DNA of 64,000 nucleotides from NCBI RefSeq assembly GCF_004795895.1, contig NZ_CP039250.1:2728001-2792000 (forward strand), written 5' to 3'. The position numbers were made by a program, and so were the translations under genes. Positions 47,519 through 61,520 of this stretch are shown here, in pieces. The notes under the pieces were generated by a model. It was not told the origin of the DNA, made no database searches, and worked only from the letters and a program-made list of their open reading frames with translations. Within the stretch, counting starts at the first letter, position 1. Each line of letters starts with the position of its first letter. This DNA comes from Sphingopyxis sp. PAMC25046 (GTDB lineage Bacteria > Pseudomonadota > Alphaproteobacteria > Sphingomonadales > Sphingomonadaceae).

Positions 47519-47563
47519 CGACGACAACCGCTCCTCCGCAGTTGCGGGGAGCACCATGTTCCG

Positions 47564-47597
47564 GCAATCCAGAATGGCAGAGGCCATTCTGGATTGC
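47564..47597. repeat. Perfect 15-bp REP-like hairpin
   Basis: GCAATCCAGAATGGC (47564-47578) and GCCATTCTGGATTGC (47583-47597) are exact complements around a 4-nt AGAG loop, 46 bp after the M28 peptidase stop. The CAATCCAG/CTGGATTG ends match a style of REP palindrome seen in alphaproteobacteria. There is no T run, so it is more likely a REP element or mRNA 3' stem than a terminator. It lies inside an upstream extension of the aguA frame, which argues for the later aguA start. Confidence 0.85.
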
Positions 47598-47654
47598 TGC
47601 GTTCTGGACGAGAAGATCGATGTCGCGGGCATCGATGCAAAGGACTATCACGCG

Positions 47655-48638
47655 ATGACGCACCGCATGCCCGCCGAATGGGCACCCCATGACGCCGTCT
47701 GGATCGGCTTTCCGCACATGGCGGAGGAATGGTCGGGCCAGATCGACGCGGCGCGACGCGATGTCGCGGCCTTCGCGAACGCCGTCCACGACGGCGGGCG
47801 CGGCGAAACGGTGCACCTGCTTGTTCGCGACCATGACAATGCCGATATAGCAGAGGCGCTCGTCGATGAGGGCGTGCTGTTGTTCGTCGCCCCCTTCGGC
47901 GATATCTGGCTGCGTGACACGGGTCCGATCATCGTCGGCACCGGCGCCCAGCGCGAGGCGCGCAATTTCGACTTCAACTGGTGGGGTAACAAGTTCGTGA
48001 TGCCCGGCGACCGCGAGATCGGGGCGATCCTGGCCGCGCAAGCGAACCTGCCGACGCAGCATCTCGACTGGGTGCTCGAGGGCGGCGGTATCGACGTCGA
48101 CGGCGCCGGCCTTTGCGTCACCACCGAGGAATGCCTGCTCAATACGAACCGCAACCCGACGCTTACGCGCGAGGACATCGCGGTGCGGCTGCAGCATTCG
48201 CTCGGCATCGACCGGCTGCTGTGGCTCGGCAACGGCCTCGTCGGCGACCACACCGATGGCCATGTCGACAATCTCGCGCGCTTCGTCGGCGAAGGCCGGC
48301 TGGCGCTGCCGGTCGCGGCGGGCGATGACGATCCCAACGCCGCCATCTATGCCGACGCGCGCGCGCGGACAGCGGCGTTCGGCGGGATCGAGATCGTCGA
48401 CCTCCCCTCGCCCGGCCGCGTCGAGATCGGCGGCGAGATTGCGGCGGCGAGCTATATGAACTTCTATATCGGCAACAGCGTCGTGGTTGTTCCGACTTAT
48501 GGCGTTCCCAACGATCGGGCCGCGATTGATACCCTCGCCGCGCTCTTTCCCGACCGCCGCGCGGTCGGCGTGCCCGCGCGCGGGATCATAGTCGGCGGCG
48601 GCAGCTTCCATTGCTCGAGTCAGCAGCTTCCGAGCTAG
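47655..48638 (+). CDS. aguA: Agmatine deiminase
   Basis: A 327-residue guanidine-modifying enzyme converting agmatine to N-carbamoylputrescine and ammonia. It has MPAEWAPHDAVWIGFPH at the N-terminus, IWLRDTGPI, WVLEGGGIDVDGAG, GDHTDGHVDNLARFV with catalytic His and Asp, and the nucleophile Cys in GGGSFHCSSQQ at the C-terminus. ATG 47655 is chosen; an earlier ATG at 47556 would translate the palindrome. It is followed 32 bp later by aguB, giving a two-step route to putrescine. Confidence 0.94.
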   Translation: MTHRMPAEWAPHDAVWIGFPHMAEEWSGQIDAARRDVAAFANAVHDGGRGETVHLLVRDHDNADIAEALVDEGVLLFVAPFGDIWLRDTGPIIVGTGAQREARNFDFNWWGNKFVMPGDREIGAILAAQANLPTQHLDWVLEGGGIDVDGAGLCVTTEECLLNTNRNPTLTREDIAVRLQHSLGIDRLLWLGNGLVGDHTDGHVDNLARFVGEGRLALPVAAGDDDPNAAIYADARARTAAFGGIEIVDLPSPGRVEIGGEIAAASYMNFYIGNSVVVVPTYGVPNDRAAIDTLAALFPDRRAVGVPARGIIVGGGSFHCSSQQLPS

Positions 48639-48670
48639 CATCAGGCGCGAAGCCCCCTATATTCCGCCGC

Positions 48671-49522
48671 ATGACCCGCACCATCACCGTCGCCGCGCTG
48701 CAGCTTGCCCTGCCCGGCCCCGTCGAACCGAATATCGACACTGTTTCCGCGCTCGTCGAGGACGCCGCGGGACAAGGCGCGCAAATCATCCTGCCGCCCG
48801 AGCTCTTCGAGGGCCCTTATTTCTGCCAGGTCGAGGAGGAAGAGCTGTTTGCGAGCGCGCGCCCGACGGCCGACCATCCGAGCGTCGTCGCGATGCAGGC
48901 GCTCGCCGCAGAGCTGAAGGTCGCAATCCCGACGAGCTATTTCGAGAAGGACGGGCCACATTATTACAATACGCTCGCGATGATCGGCCCCGACGGCGAC
49001 ATCATGGGCACTTACCGCAAGAGCCACATTCCCGATGGTCCGGGCTATGAAGAAAAATATTATTTCCGCCCCGGCAACACCGGCTTCAAGGTCTGGGACG
49101 TTTTCGGCACGCGGATAGGCGTCGGGGTGTGCTGGGACCAATGGTATCCCGAATGCGCGCGCGCGATGGCGCTGATGGGTGCCGAGCTGCTTTTCTATCC
49201 GACCGCGATCGGGTCCGAACCATATGACGCCGACCTCGATACCAGCCGCATGTGGCGCCGCGCGATGCACGGCCATGCCGTGTCGAACTGCATGCCGGTG
49301 ATCGCCGCGAACCGCATCGGACCCGAAGGCGACGCGAATTTCTATGGCCACAGCTTCATCACCAACGAGTGGGGCGACATGACGCAGGCGTTCGGTGCCA
49401 CCGAAACCGGGGTGCTTGTCGAGACGATCGACCTCGACCGCGCTGCGAAGCACCGCGCCGGCATGGGCTTCTTCCGCGACCGCCGTCCGCAGCTCTACGG
49501 GCGGCTCGTCGAGGACATCTGA
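48671..49522 (+). CDS. aguB: N-carbamoylputrescine amidase
   Basis: A 283-residue nitrilase-superfamily amidase. The triad is visible: Glu in LPPELFEGPYFC, Lys in YRKSHIPDGPGYEEKYYF and Cys in GVGVCWDQWYPE. The FRPGNTGFKVW and GSEPYDADLDT motifs are typical of AguB. It converts N-carbamoylputrescine to putrescine, CO2 and ammonia, directly after aguA. Start ATG 48671. Confidence 0.96.
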   Translation: MTRTITVAALQLALPGPVEPNIDTVSALVEDAAGQGAQIILPPELFEGPYFCQVEEEELFASARPTADHPSVVAMQALAAELKVAIPTSYFEKDGPHYYNTLAMIGPDGDIMGTYRKSHIPDGPGYEEKYYFRPGNTGFKVWDVFGTRIGVGVCWDQWYPECARAMALMGAELLFYPTAIGSEPYDADLDTSRMWRRAMHGHAVSNCMPVIAANRIGPEGDANFYGHSFITNEWGDMTQAFGATETGVLVETIDLDRAAKHRAGMGFFRDRRPQLYGRLVEDI

Positions 49523-51066: not shown

Positions 51067-51819
51067 TCAATAGCGGCCGGAAAGCAGCGCGCCGGCGCCC
51101 GGAACCTCGGCCCGCAGTCCAAGCCGCGTAAGCATCTGGTGCGCCGTGCAAATCGCGGCCGATATCACGGGTTTTCCAATCGCGTCCTCGGCCCGTTGCA
51201 CCGCCGGCAGCGACGGCATCTGGACGCACGCCGAAAGGACGAGCGCGTCGACGCCGGTCAAGTCGAGCCGCTTGTAATGGTCGAGCAGATTCGCCGGATC
51301 CTGCGCCGCGACCTCCAGATTGTCGGGGATTTCGAGCGCGAGCCAGTCGGCGACCTCCACGCCCTCATTTGCGATATAGCCGACGACCATCTCGGTCAGC
51401 GGTTTCATATAGGGCGCGACGAGCGCGATGCGTTTCGCTTGCAGGACTTGCAGCCCTTCGACCAGCGCACCGGCGCTGGTGACGACCGGCGCGGGGTGAC
51501 CATTTTCGACCGTGCGCTGGTGCAACCGCCCCTCGGAAACGCGGTGATAGCCCTCCCCCATGCTCATGATCGCGACGAGGCAGGCATAGCCCAAGACGTC
51601 GACCGCGGCGTCGGACAATTCGAGCGCGCAGCGATCGGAATCGGCATCCATCGCCGCGAGTTCTTCCTTCGTCACCTTCTTCATCCGCATCCGCGACGAG
51701 TGGAAGGTGAAGCGTTCGGGCGCGATGGCCTCGCGCGCGCGGAGCAGCGCGGGGATTTCGGTTTCCATCGTCACGTTCGAGCTGGGCACGATCTGCCCGA
51801 TGCGAATGGGGCGTGTCAT
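51067..51819 (-). CDS. Maleate cis-trans isomerase (Asp/Glu racemase superfamily)
   Basis: A 250-residue cofactor-independent isomerase. It begins RIGQIVPSSNVTMETEIPAL as in maleate isomerases, with catalytic cysteines Cys80 (LGYACLVAIMSMG) and Cys198 (VLSACVQMPSLP). It converts maleate to fumarate. It is the last gene of the eight-gene kynurenine/gentisate-type operon, 7 bp after the FAH-family gene, and would give fumarate as the final product. Arylmalonate decarboxylase-like activity is a less likely alternative. Confidence 0.9.
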   Translation of the reverse strand: MTRPIRIGQIVPSSNVTMETEIPALLRAREAIAPERFTFHSSRMRMKKVTKEELAAMDADSDRCALELSDAAVDVLGYACLVAIMSMGEGYHRVSEGRLHQRTVENGHPAPVVTSAGALVEGLQVLQAKRIALVAPYMKPLTEMVVGYIANEGVEVADWLALEIPDNLEVAAQDPANLLDHYKRLDLTGVDALVLSACVQMPSLPAVQRAEDAIGKPVISAAICTAHQMLTRLGLRAEVPGAGALLSGRY

Positions 51820-51826
51820 ATCGCGC

Positions 51827-52735
51827 TCAGACCGCGACGATCGGGTTACGGAGGGTGCCGATGCCTTCTACAGTGCATTCGACGACGTCGCCCGGCCACA
51901 TGAATTCCTGCGGATCGCGGCCCGCGCCGACCCCCGCCGGGGTTCCGGTCGCGATGATGTCGCCGGGTTCGAGCGTCATCACGCTCGAAATATCGGCGAT
52001 CAGCTGGTTGACGTTGAACAGCATGAAGCGGGTGTTGCTGTTCTGCTTCTCGACGCCGTTCACATGGGTCAGGATGTTGAGATTGTGCGGATCGCCGACC
52101 TCGTCGGCGGTGACGATACACGGCCCCATCGGCGCGAAGCTGTCCTGTCCCTTCGACACGATCCACTGACCCGCGCGGCGGCAGTCGCGCGCCGACACGT
52201 CGTTGATCACCGTATAGCCGAACACATGGTTCAGCGCGTCACCCTCCGCGACGTGGCGCGCGGTGCTGCCGATCACCACCGCGAGCTCGGTTTCCCAGTC
52301 GAGCTGCTGCGTCACCTTCGCATTGTGACGGATCGGATCGTTCCACGCGACGACGGCGGTCGGCGGTTTCGAGAAGATTACCGGCTGCTGCGGCAATTCG
52401 TTCGACGTGTCGAGCGAACGCGCCGATTCAGCGACATGCTCGGTATAGTTGAGGCCGATTCCGAAGATATTCTTGCGCGGCCGCGGGATCGGCGCGAGCA
52501 AAGTGACATTGTCTTCGGGCAGCGAGGTCCCGATCAGGTCGGCCGTGGTCGCGGCTGCAACGGCTTCCTGCAGGAAGCGCAGTGCGATCGGGCCCAGATC
52601 GATGAAATCGAGCATCGTCGACGGCATGTCATTGCCGATCGCATCGCCGAAATATTCGACATCGATCACGAGCCCGTCGTGGAGAAGGCCGAGCCGCGGT
52701 TCGGTCTCGACCGTGCGATACGTCACAAAGCGCAT
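51827..52735 (-). CDS. Fumarylacetoacetate-hydrolase-family C-C hydrolase (probable maleyl-/maleamylpyruvate hydrolase)
   Basis: A 302-residue hydrolase. The metal site and family marks are IFGIGLNYTEHVAES, LDWETELAVVIG, SKGQDSFAPMGPCIV and LEPGDIIATGTPAGVG. FAH enzymes of this type split acylpyruvates into pyruvate and an acid. Placed between a gentisate-dioxygenase-like cupin and maleate isomerase, it would cleave the ring-fission product without a glutathione-dependent isomerase. It overlaps the dioxygenase gene by 13 bp. The exact substrate is inferred from the operon. Confidence 0.9.
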   Translation of the reverse strand: MRFVTYRTVETEPRLGLLHDGLVIDVEYFGDAIGNDMPSTMLDFIDLGPIALRFLQEAVAAATTADLIGTSLPEDNVTLLAPIPRPRKNIFGIGLNYTEHVAESARSLDTSNELPQQPVIFSKPPTAVVAWNDPIRHNAKVTQQLDWETELAVVIGSTARHVAEGDALNHVFGYTVINDVSARDCRRAGQWIVSKGQDSFAPMGPCIVTADEVGDPHNLNILTHVNGVEKQNSNTRFMLFNVNQLIADISSVMTLEPGDIIATGTPAGVGAGRDPQEFMWPGDVVECTVEGIGTLRNPIVAV

Positions 52736-53865
52736 GTTTGATGTCCGTCATTTTCTTGGAGGGCTTCCTCGATCCGGACGCCGAGCGCCTCCATCACGGG
52801 AAAATCGTTGAACGAGAAGAGGAAAGCCTCCTCAGAGGCATCGAGATTGACATGTTCGTGCCACGTCCACGCGGGCACGCAGAAAATGTCGTGCGTTTGC
52901 CAGTCGAAACGCTCGCCGCCGATGATCGAATAGCCGCGCCCGCCCGCGACATTATAGACGACGTTTCCGGTGTGGCGGTGCGCCTTGCCGCGAAAACCGG
53001 GCTTCAGCATCTGCATATGCGCGCCCATCGTCTGGAGCGCCCAGCCGCCGGTCAGCGGGTTCGAATAGCGCATCATATGCCCGTCGAATGGCGTGCCCTC
53101 CGAAACCTTCGCGAGGTTCCAAAGCGCGTCGCGTACCGTCTCCCAGCGATAGACCATCATGGGCGAATAGGGTTTCTCCCACGCCGGCACGCCTTCGGGG
53201 CGAAGCGCGGCACCGCCATAGCTCAGCGGCAAGTCGTCCACGGGGAACGCCGCGGTTTGCGCGGGCTTGTCGTAGACCGCGTAGAAATTGGTCTCGAGGC
53301 TGTTCATCAGCGGAATATCGAGCCCGTCCTGCCAGATCGACACCTCACCCTCGGCCACCACGCCGTGGTCGTGCCAGGCGCCGTTCGGGGTCAGCACATA
53401 GTCGTTCGCGCCGAGCGTGATGTGGTGGCCGTCGACGACGGTATAGGCGCCCTTCCCCTCCATGATGAAGCGGTGGGCCGAGGCGGTATGCTTGTGCGCG
53501 GGCGTGATCTCGCCAGGGCGCATCGCCTGCATCCCGCTGAACAGCCAGCCACACACCGCGACATTTTCGCGCCCCGCGTCGCTGTCGTTGAGCAGGGTGA
53601 CGACGCGGCGGCCCGCTTCCTCGGGCTTCACCAGATCGAGCGCCCGCAGACACATCGCGCGCATGTCGGCGTAACGCCAGAGCGTCGGGCGATAGCGCGT
53701 CTCGGGCTCCCACGGCTCGATCGCGTTGGCGCGTTTCCAGAAAGCGCCCGCATTGCGCGCGGCAAGCTCTTGATAAAAGGCCTCGAGTTCGGGCGTGTCG
53801 ATTACCCGCGCGCGCCCGAGAACGTCGTCGCGCGGATCGATGATCGTGCTGGCTTCTGCCATCAT
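52723..53865 (-). CDS. Gentisate 1,2-dioxygenase-like bicupin ring-cleavage enzyme
   Basis: A 380-residue non-heme iron dioxygenase. The N-terminal cupin has PGEITPAHKHTASAHRF with His124 and His126 and PNGAWHDHG with His165 as the iron ligands. The C-terminal cupin retains KAHRHTGNVVYNVAGG and WTWHEHVN. The family cleaves gentisate, salicylate, 1-hydroxy-2-naphthoate or related aromatic acids between the carboxyl- and hydroxyl- or amino-bearing carbons. In this operon 5-hydroxyanthranilate is a plausible substrate. Start ATG 53865 (or 53862) has GGAG 5 nt upstream and overlaps the nitrilase stop. Confidence 0.9.
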   Translation of the reverse strand: MMAEASTIIDPRDDVLGRARVIDTPELEAFYQELAARNAGAFWKRANAIEPWEPETRYRPTLWRYADMRAMCLRALDLVKPEEAGRRVVTLLNDSDAGRENVAVCGWLFSGMQAMRPGEITPAHKHTASAHRFIMEGKGAYTVVDGHHITLGANDYVLTPNGAWHDHGVVAEGEVSIWQDGLDIPLMNSLETNFYAVYDKPAQTAAFPVDDLPLSYGGAALRPEGVPAWEKPYSPMMVYRWETVRDALWNLAKVSEGTPFDGHMMRYSNPLTGGWALQTMGAHMQMLKPGFRGKAHRHTGNVVYNVAGGRGYSIIGGERFDWQTHDIFCVPAWTWHEHVNLDASEEAFLFSFNDFPVMEALGVRIEEALQENDGHQTCAL

Positions 53866-54875
53866 GAGGTCTCCTCGTCGGGATCGACGCACTGCGCCTC
53901 GTCGACGAACAGGGCCGACGCGCGGGGAGTCCGGTCGACCGTCAGGTTGAAGATGTCGAAGCGGTTATAGCCGCCGATGATGTCGTGCATCAGCTTGGGC
54001 CGGATGCAGTCGCCAAGGTCGATGTCGGCGTAGACGATGCCTTCGCCATCAATCAGCGCCTCGCCGACCAGATTGCCGTGCGGGTCGATCACCCCCGAAA
54101 AGGCGCTGTTCGGGCGCGACAGCAACTCGCGATTCTGCGGCCGATCGGCGCTCATCGCGTCGATGATTTCGGGGCTTATCGCCGAGCAGGCAACGATGGT
54201 GAAGACCTTGCCCTCGAAACTGTGCGCGGTCGCACGGATTTTGATCGCCTCGGCCATATCGTACGACGCGGGCGCGACGGGCAGCGCGATATAATTGGCG
54301 ACATGGACCAGCTCGCCCTGCGACAGCAAGGCGAAGCGCGCGAGCGTGTTGGTATTCTCGCCGCACGCGAGCGTGCCGAGCGGCCCGACCGGCGTGTCGT
54401 AGACGCGGATCGAGCTGCCGTCGCCGCCCGCCCATGTGAGCTTCTCCGCCCAGGTCGGCACCAGCTTGCGGTGGCGCCCGAGCAGGCTGCCGTCGGCGCC
54501 GATGATCAGGTTGGTGTTATAGAGCGTGCCAACGCTCAACGGATCGCGCTCGTTGATGCCGATGACGACGGTGCAGCCATGGTCGCGCGCGGCATTGCAC
54601 AGCGCGGCGACCTCGGCGCCATCGACGAGCACGGACGCGCGGTAGAGCCGCTCGTGCCACTCGGCGCCCTCGATCGGCGTCATCAGCCAGTTCCAATAGG
54701 GATAGGCCGAAACGAACACCTCGGGGAAAGCGACGAGCTGCGCGCCATTCCCCGCCGCCTCGGCGATCAGCGCGCACGCCTTGTCGACCGTGCGCGCGGT
54801 ATCGAGGAACACCGGCGCGGCCTGCACCGCTGCGACGCGCGATTTAGGCAGGAAGGGCGCCGACACGTCGCTCAT
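53862..54875 (-). CDS. Nitrilase-family carbon-nitrogen hydrolase
   Basis: A 337-residue hydrolase with the Glu52-Lys137-Cys171 triad (AFPEVFVSAYP, GRHRKLVPTWAEKL, LACGENTNTLARF). The GENTN motif and length put it with true nitrilases rather than amidases such as AguB. Alone it would be called an aliphatic or arylacetonitrilase. Within this operon, directly between kynureninase and the ring-cleavage enzyme, it might hydrolyse the primary amide maleamate. It overlaps kynU by 4 bp. Start ATG 54875 gives MSDVSAPFLPK. Confidence 0.9.
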   Translation of the reverse strand: MSDVSAPFLPKSRVAAVQAAPVFLDTARTVDKACALIAEAAGNGAQLVAFPEVFVSAYPYWNWLMTPIEGAEWHERLYRASVLVDGAEVAALCNAARDHGCTVVIGINERDPLSVGTLYNTNLIIGADGSLLGRHRKLVPTWAEKLTWAGGDGSSIRVYDTPVGPLGTLACGENTNTLARFALLSQGELVHVANYIALPVAPASYDMAEAIKIRATAHSFEGKVFTIVACSAISPEIIDAMSADRPQNRELLSRPNSAFSGVIDPHGNLVGEALIDGEGIVYADIDLGDCIRPKLMHDIIGGYNRFDIFNLTVDRTPRASALFVDEAQCVDPDEETS

Positions 54876-56113
54876 GTCACTGCCGCCCGTTGGTGATATT
54901 GCGGCTTGTCCCACGCGCGCGTAGCGCAGACCTTCTCCAACCGCTCGACGGTTTCGACGATGTCCTGATAGCGCAGATAGAGCGGCGTCAGCCCGAAGCG
55001 CAAAATGTCTGGCGCGCGGAAGTCGGCGATGACGTCATATTCCTTGAGCGCCTGCACGATCTGATAACCCTGCGGATGGGCATAGGCGACCTGGCTGCCC
55101 CGCTCGGCATGGCGCTGCGTGCTCGCCAATTCAAAGCCGTAGGCGTCGCACAGCGGCTGCATAAGCTCGACGAACAGATCGCCGAGCGCGAGCGACTTGC
55201 GGCGGATTTCGGCCATATCGGCTTCGAGCATCAGGTCGACGCCGACTTCGAGCGCCGACAGGCCGAGCACCGGCGGCGTGCCGCACTGGAAGCGCTCGAT
55301 CCCGGCGGCGGGATCATAATCCTCCTCGAAAGCGAAGGGGCGCGCATGACCGAACCAGCCCGACAGCACCGGCGTCGCGCCATGGTGCCGCGTCGCCGCG
55401 AACAGATAGGCCGGCGCGCCGGGGCCACCGTTGAGGAACTTGTAGCCGCAGCCGATCGCAAAATCAGCATTCGCGCCATTGAGGTCGACCGGGATCGCCC
55501 CCGCGCTATGGCTCAGATCCCAGACGACGAGCGCGCCGGCGTCGTGCGCCGCGCGCGTGATCGCCGCCATGTCCCGGACGCGGCCCGATTTATAGTGCAC
55601 CTGCGTCAGCAGCAGCACCGCGACATCCTCGTTCAGCGCATCGACGATTGCGTCGGGCGCAACGGTGACCGCCTTCACGCGCCCGCCGGAAAAAGCCTCG
55701 ATGCCCTGCATCATATAAACGTCGGTCGGAAAATTGGTCGCTTCGGACAGGATCACCGTCCGTTCACGCCGCAACGAAAGAGCGGCCGTCAATGCCTTGA
55801 AGATATTTACCGAAGTCGAATCAGTCGCGACGATCTCACCGGGGTTGGCGCCGATCAACTGCCCTATCTTATCGCCGATCCGGCGCGGCGCAGTCGACCA
55901 CTCCGCGCCGAGCCATGACGTGATCAGCCCCTCGCCCCATTCACTGCCGACGACTTCGGCCAGCCGCTCGCCCGTCGCCTTGGGCAACGCACCAAGCGAA
56001 TTGCCGTCGAGGTAGATCAGGCCTTCGCGCAGGTGGAAACGGTCGCGGAAAGGCGCGAGCGGATCCGCGGCATCGAGTGTAGCCACATCGGTGGCGGAGA
56101 TCGTATCGGTCAT
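54872..56113 (-). CDS. kynU: Kynureninase
   Basis: A 413-residue PLP enzyme that cleaves kynurenine (or hydroxykynurenines) to anthranilate (or hydroxyanthranilate) and alanine. It has IYLDGNSLGALPKAT at the N-terminus, ATDSTSVNIFKAL, WDLSHSAGAIPVDL, and the PLP lysine in AIGCGYKFLNGGPGAP. Length and motifs are complete. It is linked by 4-bp overlaps to kynB upstream and the nitrilase gene downstream. Confidence 0.96.
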   Translation of the reverse strand: MTDTISATDVATLDAADPLAPFRDRFHLREGLIYLDGNSLGALPKATGERLAEVVGSEWGEGLITSWLGAEWSTAPRRIGDKIGQLIGANPGEIVATDSTSVNIFKALTAALSLRRERTVILSEATNFPTDVYMMQGIEAFSGGRVKAVTVAPDAIVDALNEDVAVLLLTQVHYKSGRVRDMAAITRAAHDAGALVVWDLSHSAGAIPVDLNGANADFAIGCGYKFLNGGPGAPAYLFAATRHHGATPVLSGWFGHARPFAFEEDYDPAAGIERFQCGTPPVLGLSALEVGVDLMLEADMAEIRRKSLALGDLFVELMQPLCDAYGFELASTQRHAERGSQVAYAHPQGYQIVQALKEYDVIADFRAPDILRFGLTPLYLRYQDIVETVERLEKVCATRAWDKPQYHQRAAVT

Positions 56114-56739
56114 GCGATTTCCCTCAGGATGGCGCGCACCGGGCTGGCATCGGCGCCGACGATACGGAGCGGCAGCGCGACGAGTTCGTAGCGGCCAGGC
56201 GGCACGTCATCGAGCACGAGCCCTTCCAATATCCGCATATCGGCAGCCTTGACCGCCTGATGCGCGTCGAGCGTCTTCGACTGTTCGGGGTCGAGCGAGG
56301 CCGCGTCGGTGCCGATCAGGCGTACGCCCATCGAACCGAGCCGCGCGATCACATCGCTGGCGATTGAGGTAAAATCCGAGTCCCATTGGTCGTGCGGGAA
56401 ATGCTCATAGGTGCGCAGCAGCACGCGCTCGCTACCCTCGACCGCATCCCAGTCCACATCGGCAATCTCGACCCGGCCGCGCGCATGACGCATGTCGAGC
56501 AGCACGCACGGCCCGATATAGGCATCGAGAGCACAGTCGGCCGACGAGGCGCCATCATTGGCGTAGTGCAGCGGCGCATCGCCGTGCGTCCCCGCGTGGA
56601 GCGGCGTGAACATGCCGCCGACATTGAGCGGACAGCCGTCGCCGATCACTGCATGGCTGTGCAGCGCAAATGCGGGCTCACCCGGCCACACCGGCACCCC
56701 GGCGTGGAGCGGCTGCGAAATGTCCCAGATCCCGCTCAT
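56110..56739 (-). CDS. kynB: Kynurenine formamidase (cyclase family)
   Basis: A 209-residue metal-dependent formamidase. It starts WDISQPLHAGVPVWPGEPAF and carries the zinc motif HAGTHGDAPLHY (HxGTHxD), then GTDAASLDPEQSKTLDAHQ. It removes formate from N-formylkynurenine. Start ATG 56739 overlaps the kynA stop (ATGA). The Zn motif and length are typical of bacterial KynB. Confidence 0.96.
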   Translation of the reverse strand: MSGIWDISQPLHAGVPVWPGEPAFALHSHAVIGDGCPLNVGGMFTPLHAGTHGDAPLHYANDGASSADCALDAYIGPCVLLDMRHARGRVEIADVDWDAVEGSERVLLRTYEHFPHDQWDSDFTSIASDVIARLGSMGVRLIGTDAASLDPEQSKTLDAHQAVKAADMRILEGLVLDDVPPGRYELVALPLRIVGADASPVRAILREIA

Positions 56740-57641
56740 GCGCCCTTCCCTTCGGAGTAATCCCCGCCCTCGCGAGGCGCGACCATCTCGGTGCGCATCG
56801 ACCAGAGTTCCGGGAAAAAGCTGAGATTCAGCGCCTTGACCAGATAGTTGACCCCCGACGATCCGCCGGTCCCCGGCTTGTGCCCGATCACGCGCGCGAC
56901 GGTCTTCATGTGCTTGAAGCGCCATTCCTGAAAATAATATTCGAGCGCGGTGACCTTTTCAGCGAGCGTGTAGAGGTCCCAGTGATGCTCGGGGTCGGTG
57001 TAGATCGCGAGCCACGCCTTCTCGACCGCCTCCGATGGCTCATAGGGCTGCGTCCAGTCGCGCTCGAGATGACCGGCGGGAATGGCGAAGCCGCGCCGCG
57101 CGAGCAGCCGCAGCAATTCGTCGTAAAGCGAAGGCGCGTCGAACGCCGCGCGCAGGCGGGCGGTCGCCGCCGGATCGTCCTTGTGGACGATCATCATATC
57201 CTCGCGCTTGTTGCCGAGCATATATTCGAGTTCTCGATATTGCTGCGACTGGAAACCCGACGCGCGGCGCAGGAAACCGCGAAAGGTCAGGAAGTCGTGC
57301 GGAGTCAGCGTCGCGAGCACTTCCCAGCTATGGATCATATGCCGCTGGATCGTCGCGACCCGGTCGAGCCCCTTGCCCGCGATCTCCAGCCGGTCGCCCT
57401 TGATCGCGTCATAGACCAGCCGCCCCTCGTGCAGCACGAGCTTGAGCCACAATTCCATCGTCTGGTGCATGATGATGAACAGCATCTCGTCGGGCTTGTC
57501 CGACACCGGCACCTGCGCCGACAGCAATTGCGCGGTCTGCAGGTGCCGCGCATAGGTCAGGCCATTGTCCCACTGGATCGTCTCGCCGTCGATTTCGGTC
57601 TCGAAAATGTTGGTGCCGCCGTCGCGCGTCTGCCTGATCAT
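56736..57641 (-). CDS. kynA: Tryptophan 2,3-dioxygenase
   Basis: A 301-residue heme dioxygenase opening the indole ring of tryptophan to N-formylkynurenine. Typical stretches are NGLTYARHLQTAQLLSAQ, DEMLFIIMHQTMELWLKL, and SGFQSQQYRELEYMLGN. The C-terminal GTGGSSGVNYLVKAL loop is conserved. It is coupled to phhA upstream and kynB downstream by 4-bp overlaps. Whether it accepts 5-hydroxytryptophan cannot be read directly. Confidence 0.97.
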   Translation of the reverse strand: MIRQTRDGGTNIFETEIDGETIQWDNGLTYARHLQTAQLLSAQVPVSDKPDEMLFIIMHQTMELWLKLVLHEGRLVYDAIKGDRLEIAGKGLDRVATIQRHMIHSWEVLATLTPHDFLTFRGFLRRASGFQSQQYRELEYMLGNKREDMMIVHKDDPAATARLRAAFDAPSLYDELLRLLARRGFAIPAGHLERDWTQPYEPSEAVEKAWLAIYTDPEHHWDLYTLAEKVTALEYYFQEWRFKHMKTVARVIGHKPGTGGSSGVNYLVKALNLSFFPELWSMRTEMVAPREGGDYSEGKGA

Positions 57642-58510
57642 TGCGATGCCTCTCCGCTTGCCGGCGCAGCCGGCAGGCGCCCTTCATAGGCGACATCGCC
57701 GCGCCAGCCATCCCCCGGTTCGAGCGTCGGCTCGTCGGCAATCTTGCGGTAGATGCTCGCAAAGTCGGTTTCCTCGGTCGCGCGCAGCAATTCACCGAAC
57801 CCCGCGACGACGAAATAGGTCTGCTGCAACCGGTCGAAATGATATCCGGTCCGCATCACGCGCTCGATATCGAGCCAGATCCGCCGCGGTTCGCGCGCCG
57901 TCAGCGCCGAAACTGTCTCGGCGACGCTCGACATCAACCCTCCGCCAAAGGCGCGAAGCTCGCCATCCTCGACGACCAACCCGAACTCGACCGTATAAAG
58001 CCAAAGCCGCCCGAGAAAATCCGACGCACCCAGCTTTTCGGCGCGCAACCCCGCCTCACCATATGCGACGAGGAAGTCCGAAAAGGCCGGATCGGAGAGC
58101 ATCGGAACATGACCGAAAATGTCGTGAAACATGTCGGGTTCTTCGCTGTATGCCACCTGCTCGGGCGGCCGGAGGAAATTGGCCGCCGGAAAGCGCTTGT
58201 TCGCCAGATGCTCAAAAAACGGCGCGTTCGGGATCCAGCCGGGCACCGCGACGACCTCCCATCCCGATACGGGTTTCAGCAGCGCATTGAGTTCGGCGAA
58301 ATCGGGAACCCCCGGCGTCAGCTTGCGAAGAATATCGAGCCCGCCCAGGAAGGACCGGCACGCATAACCATCGAGCGCCGCCGACTGCCGTTCGAAAAGG
58401 GCGCGCCAAGTCTTGTGCTGCCCGTCAGTGAAGGCACGCCAGTTTTGCGGCATCGTCCAATCGGCCGCGACGCCTTCGGGCGGTGCGTCGAAAATATGCG
58501 TCGCGGCCAT
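57638..58510 (-). CDS. phhA: Pterin-dependent aromatic amino acid hydroxylase (PhhA-like; possible tryptophan 5-hydroxylase)
   Basis: A 290-residue iron/tetrahydrobiopterin hydroxylase. The iron ligands are His129 and His134 (MFHDIFGHVPMLSD) and Glu175 (TVEFGL). Four residues before the Glu the sequence reads RLWLYTVEFG, giving Leu171 where phenylalanine and tyrosine hydroxylases have Trp (YWFTVEFG) and tryptophan hydroxylases have Phe. As first gene of a kynurenine operon it may hydroxylate tryptophan rather than phenylalanine. No phhB (carbinolamine dehydratase) is nearby. ATG 58510 follows GGAGAG. Family assignment is firm, substrate is not. Confidence 0.92.
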   Translation of the reverse strand: MAATHIFDAPPEGVAADWTMPQNWRAFTDGQHKTWRALFERQSAALDGYACRSFLGGLDILRKLTPGVPDFAELNALLKPVSGWEVVAVPGWIPNAPFFEHLANKRFPAANFLRPPEQVAYSEEPDMFHDIFGHVPMLSDPAFSDFLVAYGEAGLRAEKLGASDFLGRLWLYTVEFGLVVEDGELRAFGGGLMSSVAETVSALTAREPRRIWLDIERVMRTGYHFDRLQQTYFVVAGFGELLRATEETDFASIYRKIADEPTLEPGDGWRGDVAYEGRLPAAPASGEASQ

Positions 58511-58626
58511 CGGTCTCTCTCCAAACCCTTGGCCGCCAGACTAGCCTGCGCGTGCGCGAACATTGTGCGGATTTGGTGGCGAAGCGGCGTGAAAAATCGT
58601 CATTCGTTCTGCAATATTTCTTATTT

Positions 58627-58644
58627 GAAGGAATATGTTCCTCC
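58627..58644. promoter_or_regulatory. Candidate operator for the Lrp/AsnC regulator
   Basis: AGGAATATGTTCCT (58629-58642) is a dyad with 5-bp arms and a 4-bp centre. The symmetry extends with one mismatch to 58627-58644. It lies in the 187-bp AT-richer region between phhA and the regulator, 56 bp before the regulator start. Lrp-family proteins bind such short dyads and often autoregulate. Confidence 0.5.
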
Positions 58645-58697
58645 ATGTTAGCCTCTTACCGCCATTCCGAACAAAAGCCGATTCAAGGACGAAACGC

Positions 58698-59177
58698 GTG
58701 GACAAGCTTGACTGGAAGATCGTCGCCGCGCTCGAACGCGACGGCCGCCAATCCTATGCCGACCTCGGCGAGCAGGTGGGCCTCTCCAAGTCGCCCTGCT
58801 GGTCGCGGGTGAAAAATCTCGAGGACGGCGGCGTGATCGAAGGCTATGCCGCGCGCCTCGACCCGATCGCGATCGGCCTCGCGGTGCAGAGTTTCGTCGA
58901 GGTGCAGATCCGCTTCGACGCGCATATCGAATTCGAAGCCGCGGTACTCGCGCATCCCGCCGTGGTCGAATGCCACACGACCGCGGGCGAAAGCGACTAT
59001 TTGCTCAAGATTTTCGCGCGATCGGCCGACCATCTCGACGAGCTGCTTCGTCACAATCTGTCGAAACTGCCCGGCGTTCAACGCTTGAAGACGGTGGTGT
59101 GCCTCAAGACGATCAAGCGCCACGGCCATCTCGCCCAATGGGCGCGCACGACCGAGAGCCGCGAGCGCGTCAACTGA
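58698..59177 (+). CDS. Lrp/AsnC-family regulator (KynR-like)
   Basis: A 159-residue regulator. The GTG start at 58698 has AAGGAC 9 nt upstream and gives the classical (M)DKLDWKIVAALERDGRQSY opening. The helix-turn-helix spans 20-50 (ADLGEQVGLSKSPCWSRVK) and a RAM ligand-binding domain follows, with HTTAGESDYLLKIF. KynR, an Lrp/AsnC protein, controls kyn genes in Pseudomonas. Here it is divergent from the phhA-kynABU operon and most likely controls it in response to tryptophan or kynurenine. Confidence 0.93.
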   Translation: MDKLDWKIVAALERDGRQSYADLGEQVGLSKSPCWSRVKNLEDGGVIEGYAARLDPIAIGLAVQSFVEVQIRFDAHIEFEAAVLAHPAVVECHTTAGESDYLLKIFARSADHLDELLRHNLSKLPGVQRLKTVVCLKTIKRHGHLAQWARTTESRERVN

Positions 59178-59180
59178 CCA

Positions 59181-61520
59181 TCAAAACCGCTTGCGCATCG
59201 ACAGCTGGATCGTGCGCCCGAGCGGGTCCACATCATAGCGCCGATACCCGGCCGGAACACTCCCGTCGTCCAGCACCACGCGCCGATAGCTGTTGAACAG
59301 GTTTCGGATTTCGAGCGAGATGTTCAAATCCGAAAGCCATTCTGGCTTCTCCGGCGTTCGCAGCAGACGCTCGGGCTCGACGAACAGGCGGAGGTTCAGC
59401 GTCGTCACGGGGCGATGGAGATAATCCGGCTGGCCATCCGATCCGGCGGGCGCGCGGAGCCGGAATCCGCTCTGCCAATTGCCGTCGAACGTCACGCCCA
59501 TGCCCGGTTTGCCCGCCACAAGCTGGACGTTCAGATTGTGCCGCGACTGCGCGGTATCGCCGTCCAGCCGGTCGATCACCGGGGCGCCAAGGCTGGTCAG
59601 CAGTTCGCTGCGCAGCAACCAGCCGTGGTTCACAGACAGGGTGAACTGCCAGGGATGGCCCGTCAACGCAGCGGGGGCTCGTTCCTCCTTCCGCCCCGGT
59701 GCAAGCAACAGCGTCAGGCTGTTGTTCAGCCGTTCGGTCGTGTCGCGCACGATCCGGATCGGCCGGGCGTCCACCCGGATCAGGCGCCCCGACGCATCAC
59801 GGACGAACCGGTCGGGAAAGGCGGCTTCGACCGCCAGCGAAACCCCGGGAAATCCGCCCGCGCCACCCGTCGACTGCTGCTCCCGATATTCGACCGACAG
59901 CGAGAGCAGCCGGGGATCGAACGGACGCAAAGTGGCGCCCAGCGACAAGGTGCGACGTCGGCCCGATCCCAGATCGGGGTTGCCGCCGGTGACCCAGACC
60001 GGCTCGGCGATTTCCTGTCGTGCGAAATCGTAAACGCGTCGCACCTCTTCCGAATAAGGGGCGGTCAATTGATCGAGCGATGGCGCGAGCTTGGCGAAGC
60101 TGACCGATCCGTCGAGCCGGAGCGCGGGAACAGGGCTCCAGTTCGCGCCCAGCTCGAACCGCGGACGCGACGCCTCGCGGGAACCGAAGGTCAGACCGCC
60201 GGCGAAGTCGAGCGCCAGGTCACCGAGCAGCGAATGCGGGTTTTCGTTTCGACTGGCGATCGGCACCGCGAACGACAGCCGGCCGTCGTATCGGTCCTGT
60301 CCCACGCGGACGGTGCGGTCGTCATCGTCTATTCCGTTCCTGAACCGACTGGTCGTGCGGTTGCGGTTCATTCCCGCCGTCAGCGTCGCGGTCAACGGCC
60401 CGGCCGGCAGGTCGGCGATCGATCGGTTGTAGGTCAGTCGCGTGCTCAAGCTTTCGCTCACCGACCGGTTGCGGCTTGTAGCGAATCCTTCGGGCGACAG
60501 CCCGTCGGGCTGGTCGATGCGGCCGTTCGCCCAGACGCGCGTATAGTTGGCGCTGAAGATCGCGCGCCCGCCGGCGAGAGGCCCCGACAAGCTGGTCGAA
60601 AGACCGAGATTCCGGGAATTTTGCCTGCCAAGCAGGACCGGCGCACCCGCCCCGGAATCGGTCGGCGCCAGGCCCAGCGATTGCCGGCTGCCGCTTGCCG
60701 CGGCGTCGAGGCTCAACGAAGCGCTAAAGCGCCCGATCGGCCGCGTAAGCCCCGCGGAGACCGACATCTGCTCCGTCGCGGGGCGCAGCGACCGAAAGTC
60801 GTCGTCATCCGCCCGTGGTGGCGACGAGGCGCGCGAACTTTCGAACAGCGCGCTCTCGCCCGCAAGCTGGACCTGCGCGCTCCACCGCGCCTTGCCGTCG
60901 ATGACGAAACGCCCCGCCGATCCGCTGCCGCCAATTTGGCCCCCCGCGGTCGGTGCCTTAACGCTGGCCTGCGCCTCCCACGACACGAAATGTCGTTTGA
61001 GGACGAGGTTCACGACGCGCTGGTTGCCCGCATAGCCGTATCGCCCGGCGGCTTCGGGCGGCAGGATCGCAAGACGCTTGAGCGCGGCCGGCGGGAAGCG
61101 GGCCAGGTCTTGAATCGAATCGACGCGCTCGCCGTTGATCAGAATGATGGGCCGTTCGTCGGGTCGCCCGGTCAGCGGCGCGATCCGGCGCACCAGTTCG
61201 CCGATCGAATAGGCGCCATAGGAATCGATCTGCAGTTCATCGAGCTCGATTTCGGGTTCGACGAGCGCCTCGCCATATCGCGCGGTGACGACGATCTCCT
61301 GATCATCGCCGACTGCAACGGTCTCGCCGTCGGAGGCGTCCGGCGATGGCGGCCCGGCAGGAGGCAGGTCCTGCGCATATGCGGCTACCGAGGGCCACAG
61401 CCACATCGAAGCCAGCAGCGCCGCACAACGCCATCCGGGATTGCGGAAGGCCTCGCGCCCGCCGGACGGGCCCGATGGATCGTCCGCGTCGTTTTTGCGC
61501 GCTGCTTCCCTTTCCCGCAT
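59181..61520 (-). CDS. TonB-dependent outer-membrane receptor
   Basis: A 779-residue protein. An extended basic N-terminus precedes the signal peptide (LLASMWLWPSVAAYA-Q). A TonB-box-like EIVVTARYG, a plug domain with RPIILINGERVDSIQDL and VNLVLKRHF, and a long beta-barrel ending in SMRKRF with terminal Phe follow. The plug is short. The ligand is unknown. Its stop is 3 bp from the end of the converging Lrp/AsnC gene, so it is outside the kynurenine operon but may serve related uptake. Confidence 0.88.
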   Translation of the reverse strand: MREREAARKNDADDPSGPSGGREAFRNPGWRCAALLASMWLWPSVAAYAQDLPPAGPPSPDASDGETVAVGDDQEIVVTARYGEALVEPEIELDELQIDSYGAYSIGELVRRIAPLTGRPDERPIILINGERVDSIQDLARFPPAALKRLAILPPEAAGRYGYAGNQRVVNLVLKRHFVSWEAQASVKAPTAGGQIGGSGSAGRFVIDGKARWSAQVQLAGESALFESSRASSPPRADDDDFRSLRPATEQMSVSAGLTRPIGRFSASLSLDAAASGSRQSLGLAPTDSGAGAPVLLGRQNSRNLGLSTSLSGPLAGGRAIFSANYTRVWANGRIDQPDGLSPEGFATSRNRSVSESLSTRLTYNRSIADLPAGPLTATLTAGMNRNRTTSRFRNGIDDDDRTVRVGQDRYDGRLSFAVPIASRNENPHSLLGDLALDFAGGLTFGSREASRPRFELGANWSPVPALRLDGSVSFAKLAPSLDQLTAPYSEEVRRVYDFARQEIAEPVWVTGGNPDLGSGRRRTLSLGATLRPFDPRLLSLSVEYREQQSTGGAGGFPGVSLAVEAAFPDRFVRDASGRLIRVDARPIRIVRDTTERLNNSLTLLLAPGRKEERAPAALTGHPWQFTLSVNHGWLLRSELLTSLGAPVIDRLDGDTAQSRHNLNVQLVAGKPGMGVTFDGNWQSGFRLRAPAGSDGQPDYLHRPVTTLNLRLFVEPERLLRTPEKPEWLSDLNISLEIRNLFNSYRRVVLDDGSVPAGYRRYDVDPLGRTIQLSMRKRF

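Follow-up and report, generated by a model that had tools for sequence, protein, structure and literature searches.

What could an operon accomplish that joins an aromatic amino acid hydroxylase and the kynurenine genes of tryptophan breakdown to genes of gentisate-type ring cleavage? The question is raised by a locus of Sphingopyxis sp. PAMC25046, contained in the 64,000-nucleotide stretch analysed here (contig NZ_CP039250.1, positions 2,728,001 to 2,792,000; hereafter the window), which belongs to a 4.50-Mb single-contig genome. Eight genes, namely phhA, kynA, kynB, kynU and genes for a nitrilase-superfamily enzyme, a double cupin, an FAH-family hydrolase and a maleate isomerase, occupy the minus strand from 58510 to 51067, each as an open frame running from ATG to TGA. 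Overlaps of 4 bp occur at each of the phhA/kynA, kynA/kynB, kynB/kynU, kynU/nitrilase and nitrilase/cupin junctions and one of 13 bp at cupin/FAH; a 7-bp gap separates FAH and isomerase. The original prediction had described this layout from the letters alone (eight genes on one strand, overlaps of 4–13 bp, one 7-bp gap and a divergent Lrp/AsnC regulator), and the frames and junctions confirm it. With a probability of roughly 0.6, we consider that the operon would encode a dedicated catabolic route in which L-tryptophan is broken down through 5-hydroxyanthranilate, yielding pyruvate, fumarate, alanine, formate and ammonia.

In the proposed route, PhhA would hydroxylate tryptophan at C5. According to the chemistry of their families, and assuming 5-hydroxylated substrates, KynA would then open the pyrrole ring, KynB would remove formate and KynU would release alanine, leaving 5-hydroxyanthranilate. 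The cupin would cut the ring between the carboxyl-bearing and the amino-bearing carbons; since this cut falls beside the carbon that bears the amino group, the nitrogen would become that of an amide in the product, maleamylpyruvate. The FAH-family and nitrilase-type enzymes, in either order, would release pyruvate and ammonia to leave maleate, which the isomerase, assigned by strong homology, would convert to fumarate. A maleate end product requires oxygen at C5 before ring cleavage. One step per gene, from tryptophan to fumarate via 5-hydroxyanthranilate, had also been predicted originally, and the comparative evidence presented below, especially the alternative feeders of the lower genes and the changed pockets of both PhhA and tryptophan 2,3-dioxygenase (TDO, encoded by kynA), lends support to it.

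The synteny search proposed at that time revealed that the gene set recurs. Scanning contigs with the window cupin as query yielded 77 loci, comprising 28 Sphingomonadales loci of the kyn type, five loci of Woeseiaceae, 10 others with nitrilase and cupin, nine nitrilase-less cupins (51–61% identity) and 25 distant ones; the closest cupins (94–95% identity) were from Sphingopyxis. When locus L130 from Sphingopyxis genome G030 is included, phhA, kynA, kynB, kynU, nitrilase, cupin and FAH genes were all found in 29 of 29 Sphingomonadales loci, of which 26 also contain the isomerase and 28 the Lrp gene; these are related genomes, and the counts are not independent of one another. Recurrence of the gene set is not chance. 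Sixty Sphingopyxis genomes were sampled, all with a PhhA match (one a fragment only). Operon-type PhhA, classed by score, occurs in 28 of them, a kynA at no less than 77% identity in the same 28 and a cupin at no less than 56% in 27 of these; none of the remaining genomes has kynA or cupin at these levels. Residues were read for a subset of these genomes only (including G000, G005, G030 and G050) and for the scan loci. Within the operon, phhA is a loosely attached yet faithful partner, lying divergent from the rest or downstream in five of the 29 loci (L018–L021 and L130). A low-scoring PhhA of genome G046 (one of 29 in the genus) was dropped from the operon-type count, being 45% identical and adjoining 4-hydroxyphenylpyruvate dioxygenase; at that locus (L129, 7690–9729) the divergent gene stands directly beside the dioxygenase and an Lrp gene, which is the ordinary phenylalanine/tyrosine arrangement.

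The genome with operon-type PhhA and kynA that gave no cupin match, G050, has a locus devoid of the nitrilase-cupin-FAH-isomerase block; kynU is followed there by a transporter gene 92% identical to one that flanks the isomerase in G030. Because the whole block is absent from this locus, the lower four genes appear to act as one module.

Operon PhhA scores 280.5–280.7 bits against TIGR01267 (phenylalanine 4-hydroxylase), above the cut-off of 264.75. This score, as well as the divergent or downstream phhA in five of 29 loci, would suit an ordinary phenylalanine hydroxylase carried as a passenger, with the anthranilate from KynABU put to some other purpose and a gentisate pathway encoded by the lower four genes, an arrangement that we regard as rather improbable. 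Its first element is weakened by the second, ordinary PhhA of the same genome (342.6 bits to TIGR01267), which is of the W type (Trp at the specificity site), and by the presence of operon kynA in all 28 genomes that have operon-type PhhA. In a quick, thinned tree (61 rows including 22 of the operon type; some branches are long), operon-type PhhA forms one clade apart from the ordinary PhhA of the genome, on a long stem (length 1.11) with a Shimodaira–Hasegawa-like approximate likelihood ratio test (SH-aLRT) value of 100. At the site of CvPAH I234, which we take to align with human PAH V379, TH D425 and TPH1 I366, all 30 distinct operon-type sequences carry Phe and all 37 ordinary ones Ile. 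The site of CvPAH W180 (XcPAH W179) is Leu in 30 of 30 and Trp in 37 of 37, respectively; the available text of PMC11885754 describes it as setting preference for phenylalanine or tryptophan, with Phe common there in TPH. Operon PhhA has neither the Trp of phenylalanine 4-hydroxylase nor the Phe of TPH, having Leu instead. The pocket is thus remodelled, and ordinary phenylalanine hydroxylation by this enzyme is doubtful. In the route favoured here, it would act on tryptophan rather than on kynurenine. A gene for pterin-4a-carbinolamine dehydratase (PF01329, 107.5 bits) is located close to phhA in a Novosphingobium locus (L021).

Downstream of phhA, KynB (237.8 bits to TIGR03035, cut-off 223.05) and KynU (296.5 bits to TIGR01814, cut-off 246.4; 431 bits to 1qz9) exceed the thresholds of their families. 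KynA, the only match to itself in the genome at E ≤ 0.001, reaches 355.6 bits against TIGR03036, below a cut-off (390.7) that most genomes with a match also miss (17 of 27, counting that of the window). We compared 39 distinct operon-type TDOs (35 from Sphingomonadales and four from Woeseiaceae) with 34 others. Site 27 (XcTDO numbering) is His in 39/39 of the operon type, and Tyr in 33 and His in one of the others; site 113 is Phe in 39/39, and Tyr in 28, Phe in five and Leu in one of the others. Phe51, His55, Arg117 and Thr254, whose roles we assume here, are kept in the operon type except for three gapped rows at 254. Tyr27 and Tyr113 presumably line the substrate pocket, and the changed Tyr27 therefore suggests that the operon TDO itself sees an altered substrate.

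This change bears on the order of the first steps. Conceivably, hydroxylation comes one or two steps later: TDO opens tryptophan first, and PhhA acts on kynurenine, adding the hydroxyl para to its amino group. The 5-hydroxykynurenine so made would lead to 5-hydroxyanthranilate and into the same lower half. Such late hydroxylation would agree with TDOs being, as we presume, poor on 5-hydroxytryptophan and with a PhhA pocket change unlike that of known tryptophan hydroxylases; it is at odds with the substitution of Tyr27 in 39 of 39 operon TDOs and with the action of PhhA-family enzymes on phenylalanine, tyrosine and tryptophan, which we take as given, and we judge it unlikely. The sole non-operon TDO with His27 comes from Reyranella (locus L034, 7829–11101), where a gene encoding His27 and Phe113 lies beside kynU and a cupin gene. 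This TDO is 33–36% identical to operon-type and ordinary TDOs alike, and its residues are possibly a convergence. The only PhhA match of that genome is W-type, and a full-length copy of NF006101 (bifunctional salicylyl-CoA 5-hydroxylase/oxidoreductase; 1262.6 bits) is present elsewhere in it.

The reading through 5-hydroxyanthranilate also depends on what the last four genes do. The final gene probably encodes a maleate isomerase, with strong homology to the solved maleate cis-trans isomerase 4fq7 (342 bits; Amdase PF17645, 59 bits) and two Cys motifs that are present in the window copy and in 46 and 45 of 47 copies, respectively. The FAH-family protein matches PF01557 FAA_hydrolase with 238.9 bits but maleylpyruvate hydrolase 6jvv with only 118.7 bits. 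The nitrilase (CN_hydrolase, 138 bits) was compared across 34 kyn-type loci and 21 other loci with nitrilase and cupin; in these 55 cassette copies, the Glu and Lys catalytic motifs are present in all 55 and the Cys motif in 54. A nitrilase-only search of 398 Pseudomonadota genomes, the source of loci L160–L163, placed a nitrilase of at least 63% identity next to the cupin in four of four genomes, own genome apart, and the same was seen in nine of nine plasmid records among the matches listed; three relatives at 48–50% in the 398-genome search had no cupin in the surrounding 18 kb. A nitrilase tied strictly to the cupin should act on the product of the cupin. Cleavage of 5-hydroxyanthranilate gives an amide and needs a C–N hydrolase, whereas cleavage of gentisate needs none, and we infer that the nitrilase may be an amidase for maleamate or maleamylpyruvate. 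Were the lower genes a gentisate pathway behind a passenger PhhA, the nitrilase would be left without a step, even though at no less than 63% identity it stands beside the cupin in 13 of 13 cases among the matches listed, and to our knowledge no family of the operon makes gentisate.

The nitrilase would also be left to some other function if the amine were lost as ammonia before or at ring cleavage, through hydrolytic deamination to gentisate. Precedents for this can be found in the accessible parts of two papers, in which a 5-hydroxyanthranilate-to-gentisate route is proposed for Nocardia opaca (PMC4539516) and gentisate is reported from indole (PMC6221969). No deaminase-annotated gene occurs among the eight genes or in five cassette stretches, where no search was aimed at deaminases, and the nitrilase, whose catalytic motifs are intact, is the one C–N hydrolase that the last four genes encode; we give this alternative little credence.

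Further support for 5-hydroxyanthranilate comes from the company that the lower genes keep elsewhere. The 21 other nitrilase and cupin loci are from Flavobacterium agri, Actinomycetota, roseobacters, Shinella, Caballeronia and further Pseudomonadota. Ten plasmid regions (L150–L159) were picked among the plasmid matches listed (best 20 of 109 nitrilase and 30 of 56 cupin records); L158 is without cupin, and L155, whose cassette is cut by IS66, and L156, with a 34% nitrilase, were left out of the 21. None of the 21 loci contains kynA, kynU or phhA. Instead, 16 carry an indolepyruvate-oxidoreductase-like (IOR) pair and/or NF006101, nine a thioesterase (4HBT-type probes) and five a cyclase gene; FAH is found in 19 and the isomerase in 15, some stretches stopping at contig ends. 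Probes for IOR, the CoA-ester 5-hydroxylase and the cyclase were derived from L043, and those for the thioesterase from L030, L150 and L151, so that these loci match by construction; not one of the 34 kyn-type loci matched any of the four kinds of probe. Against a cut-off of 1078 bits, the NF006101 matches beside the cassette score 1132 and 1333, and the copy in F. agri falls short at 966 bits over its whole length; six of seven Actinomycetota cassette genomes searched have a full-length NF006101, five of them above the cut-off. The cyclase beside the Caballeronia cassette scores 461 bits to isatin hydrolase 5nmp.

These gene neighbours suggest that other bacteria feed the cassette from isatin- or anthranilate-type precursors, by 5-hydroxylation of anthraniloyl-CoA followed by a thioesterase. 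Formation of 5-hydroxyanthraniloyl-CoA by 2-aminobenzoyl-CoA monooxygenase/reductase under NADH limitation is described in the available part of PMC3534580. As two gene sets feed the same lower genes, 5-hydroxyanthranilate would be the simplest and natural common intermediate of the kyn-type and CoA-type feeders, and the last four genes of the window operon appear to be a separable, transferable 5-hydroxyanthranilate cassette. On a Caballeronia plasmid (L151, 2242–14628), IOR, thioesterase, CoA-ester 5-hydroxylase, cupin, FAH, nitrilase, isomerase, MarR and isatin hydrolase genes stand together, making it a candidate isatin-to-fumarate cluster and a candidate gene set for the gentisate-type indole route. 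A Cupriavidus taiwanensis plasmid (L155, 6061–13767) has thioesterase, 5-hydroxylase, cupin and FAH genes, followed by IS66 genes in the place of nitrilase and isomerase.

The cupin itself falls below the cut-offs of both TIGR02272 gentisate 1,2-dioxygenase (290.7 bits, cut-off 442.1) and the 5-aminosalicylate dioxygenase profile (250.3 bits, cut-off 650). Its best solved relative is 3bu7 (61% identical), which corresponds to Ruegeria pomeroyi SPO_RS20405 (100% over 371 residues) and, judging by its title, was published as a gentisate 1,2-dioxygenase (GDOsp). The GDOsp gene belongs to a nitrilase-cupin-FAH-isomerase cassette that has IOR and thioesterase genes as neighbours (L150, NC_006569.1, 7954–11835). 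The physiological substrate of GDOsp may be 5-hydroxyanthranilate. In a quick, thinned tree (67 of 90 cupins, some long branches), the cupin of the phhA-kynABU operon in G030 does not join the kyn type; it falls among five CoA-type cupins, adjacent to two others whose context is unassigned (SH-aLRT 90–93), as expected if both kinds share one substrate.

The window cupin keeps the metal His residues as well as Arg83, Gln108, Arg127 and Asp174 (numbering of salicylate 1,2-dioxygenase, SDO). In the accessible text of PMC10306065, Asp174 and Trp104 are the two 5-OH contacts of SDO, and the distantly related 5-nitrosalicylate dioxygenase shows no activity towards 5-hydroxyanthranilate. The cupin residues fit a 5-hydroxylated substrate, and a 2-amino and a 2-hydroxy group are not distinguished by them. 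Direct cleavage of anthranilate or 3-hydroxyanthranilate might be proposed, given that SDO cuts its ring without a 5-OH (same part of PMC10306065), that SDO Trp104 is Phe here and that no hydroxylase is recognised in Woeseiaceae. FAH and the well-supported maleate isomerase, however, need oxygen at C5, and Asp174 is kept in all groups compared, which makes this alternative very improbable.

Several observations weigh against the route through 5-hydroxyanthranilate. According to PMC11885754, 5-hydroxytryptophan was formed by XcPAH W179F and W179Y but not by W179L, W179I or W179M; because of the W179L result, we rejected the idea that a Leu at this specificity site proves tryptophan activity. 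The nearest relatives and named families of the window nitrilase are true nitrilases, not amidases. The tie between nitrilase and cupin is one-way, as 13 related cupins, nine from the contig scan and four more, some of them on short contigs, lack an orthologous nitrilase in the stretch examined, which would also suit a gentisate pathway beside a passenger PhhA. These loci (L029, L031–L034, L036, L038, L045, L049 and L171–L174; 51–61% identical) include three with an FAH at no less than 54% close by (L171, L172 and L174), L174 having a 34% nitrilase; their cupins may be gentisate enzymes, may use another amidase or may have the nitrilase elsewhere. The publication of 3bu7 as a gentisate dioxygenase, seen from its title, likewise favours the gentisate pathway and means that the cupin clade probably accepts gentisate. 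SDO Trp104 is replaced by Phe in kyn-type cupins and by Tyr or Phe in CoA-type ones. The isomerase has no nearby copy in three of the 29 Sphingomonadales loci; among the 21 other loci, partly at contig ends, six are without isomerase, two without FAH and five without either IOR or 5-hydroxylase. Finally, five Woeseiaceae loci (L026, L027, L028, L062 and L077) have kynA and the kyn-type cassette, with kynU in four, and neither PhhA (TIGR01267) nor full-length NF006101 was found in these five draft genomes (1.1–2.0 Mb). Since FAH and maleate isomerase are kept there, either hydroxylation still occurs or the substrate arrives hydroxylated.

Parts of the proposed route have counterparts in known pathways. 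With the anthranilate branch of the bacterial kynurenine pathway it shares kynA, kynB and kynU orthologues in order, but a hydroxylase comes first and the amino acid product undergoes gentisate-type cleavage at the end; TIGR03037 (3-hydroxyanthranilate dioxygenase) was not found in the window genome, where anthranilate dioxygenase and kynurenine monooxygenase (KMO) were not searched for. The gentisate pathway with direct maleylpyruvate hydrolysis likewise employs a cupin dioxygenase and an FAH-type hydrolase; the operon differs from it in its proposed nitrogen-bearing substrate, the extra nitrilase-type enzyme, the maleate isomerase and a cupin below the cut-off. Maleate isomerase (342 bits to 4fq7) and, we presume, a maleamate intermediate link it to the nicotinate/nicotine pathway, whose NicF we take to be an isochorismatase-type amidase in contrast to the nitrilase-superfamily enzyme proposed here. 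A hydroxylase like that of the 2-aminobenzoyl-CoA monooxygenase/reductase pathway stands beside the cassette in other bacteria, whereas hydroxylation in the window would take place at the amino acid level, the dioxygenase cleaving the ring as free acid. GDOsp is a 61% identical cupin in the same cassette; it was published as a gentisate dioxygenase, by its title, and its gene accompanies IOR and thioesterase, unlike the window cupin with kynABU.

We found no description of an operon of this kind in the open-licence full-text literature, which is weak evidence as most subscription papers lie outside that search. The nearest precedents, as given in the accessible portions of the sources, are the 5-hydroxyanthranilate-to-gentisate route of Nocardia opaca (PMC4539516) and the gentisate route from indole, the gene for which a 2018 review calls not yet revealed (PMC6221969). 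A wider claim, to which we assign slightly less than even odds, is that the operon degrades tryptophan to fumarate by a specialised route whose intermediates are 5-hydroxytryptophan, 5-hydroxykynurenine, 5-hydroxyanthranilate, maleamylpyruvate and maleate, that the pockets of its bacterial tryptophan hydroxylase and its TDO changed together, and that the mobile 5-hydroxyanthranilate cassette would be the missing gene set of the old "gentisate-type" anthranilate/indole route, GDOsp being physiologically included. If true, the tryptophan ring would have a further aerobic fate, the gentisate-type indole/anthranilate route would have a gene-level candidate, and a natural bacterial enzyme making 5-hydroxytryptophan (5-HTP) or 5-hydroxykynurenine would be available, which could be useful for producing 5-HTP. 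The operon also suggests that gentisate, under which the structure of GDOsp was filed, is a secondary substrate of that enzyme.

Table 1. Features of the operon and its control region (window positions)
Feature	Position	Strand	Basis
PhhA-like pterin-dependent aromatic amino acid hydroxylase, proposed tryptophan 5-hydroxylase	57638..58510	-	TIGR01267
KynA, tryptophan 2,3-dioxygenase (TDO), His for Tyr27 (XcTDO numbering)	56736..57641	-	TIGR03036
KynB, kynurenine formamidase	56110..56739	-	TIGR03035
KynU, kynureninase	54872..56113	-	TIGR01814, 1qz9
Nitrilase-superfamily enzyme, proposed amidase for maleamate or maleamylpyruvate	53862..54875	-	PF00795
Double-cupin ring-cleaving dioxygenase, proposed 5-hydroxyanthranilate 1,2-dioxygenase	52723..53865	-	61% identity to 3bu7
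FAH-family hydrolase, proposed maleamylpyruvate (or maleylpyruvate) hydrolase	51827..52735	-	PF01557
Maleate cis-trans isomerase	51067..51819	-	4fq7 match, two Cys motifs
Divergent Lrp/AsnC regulator	58635..59177	+	PF01037 and PF13404
124 bp between the divergently oriented phhA and Lrp genes, presumed to hold the promoter	58511..58634	.	position between divergent genes

A scan for sigma-70-like promoters listed none in 58511–58634. It gave four promoter-like sites in total, with 1.4 ± 1.1 expected, one of which lies on the operon strand inside the end of kynA (56962–56934) and may be an internal operon promoter. Terminator-like sites numbered eight, with 5.9 ± 2.9 expected. Adjoining the Lrp gene, positions 59181–61520 encode a 779-amino-acid, outer-membrane-receptor-like protein with no Pfam match at 0.001. 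Farther away in the window (47556–49522), with no relation to the operon, a PAD_porph gene, a family name that we take to mean agmatine-deiminase-like, is followed by a second CN_hydrolase gene, and the two are likely an agmatine-to-putrescine pair.

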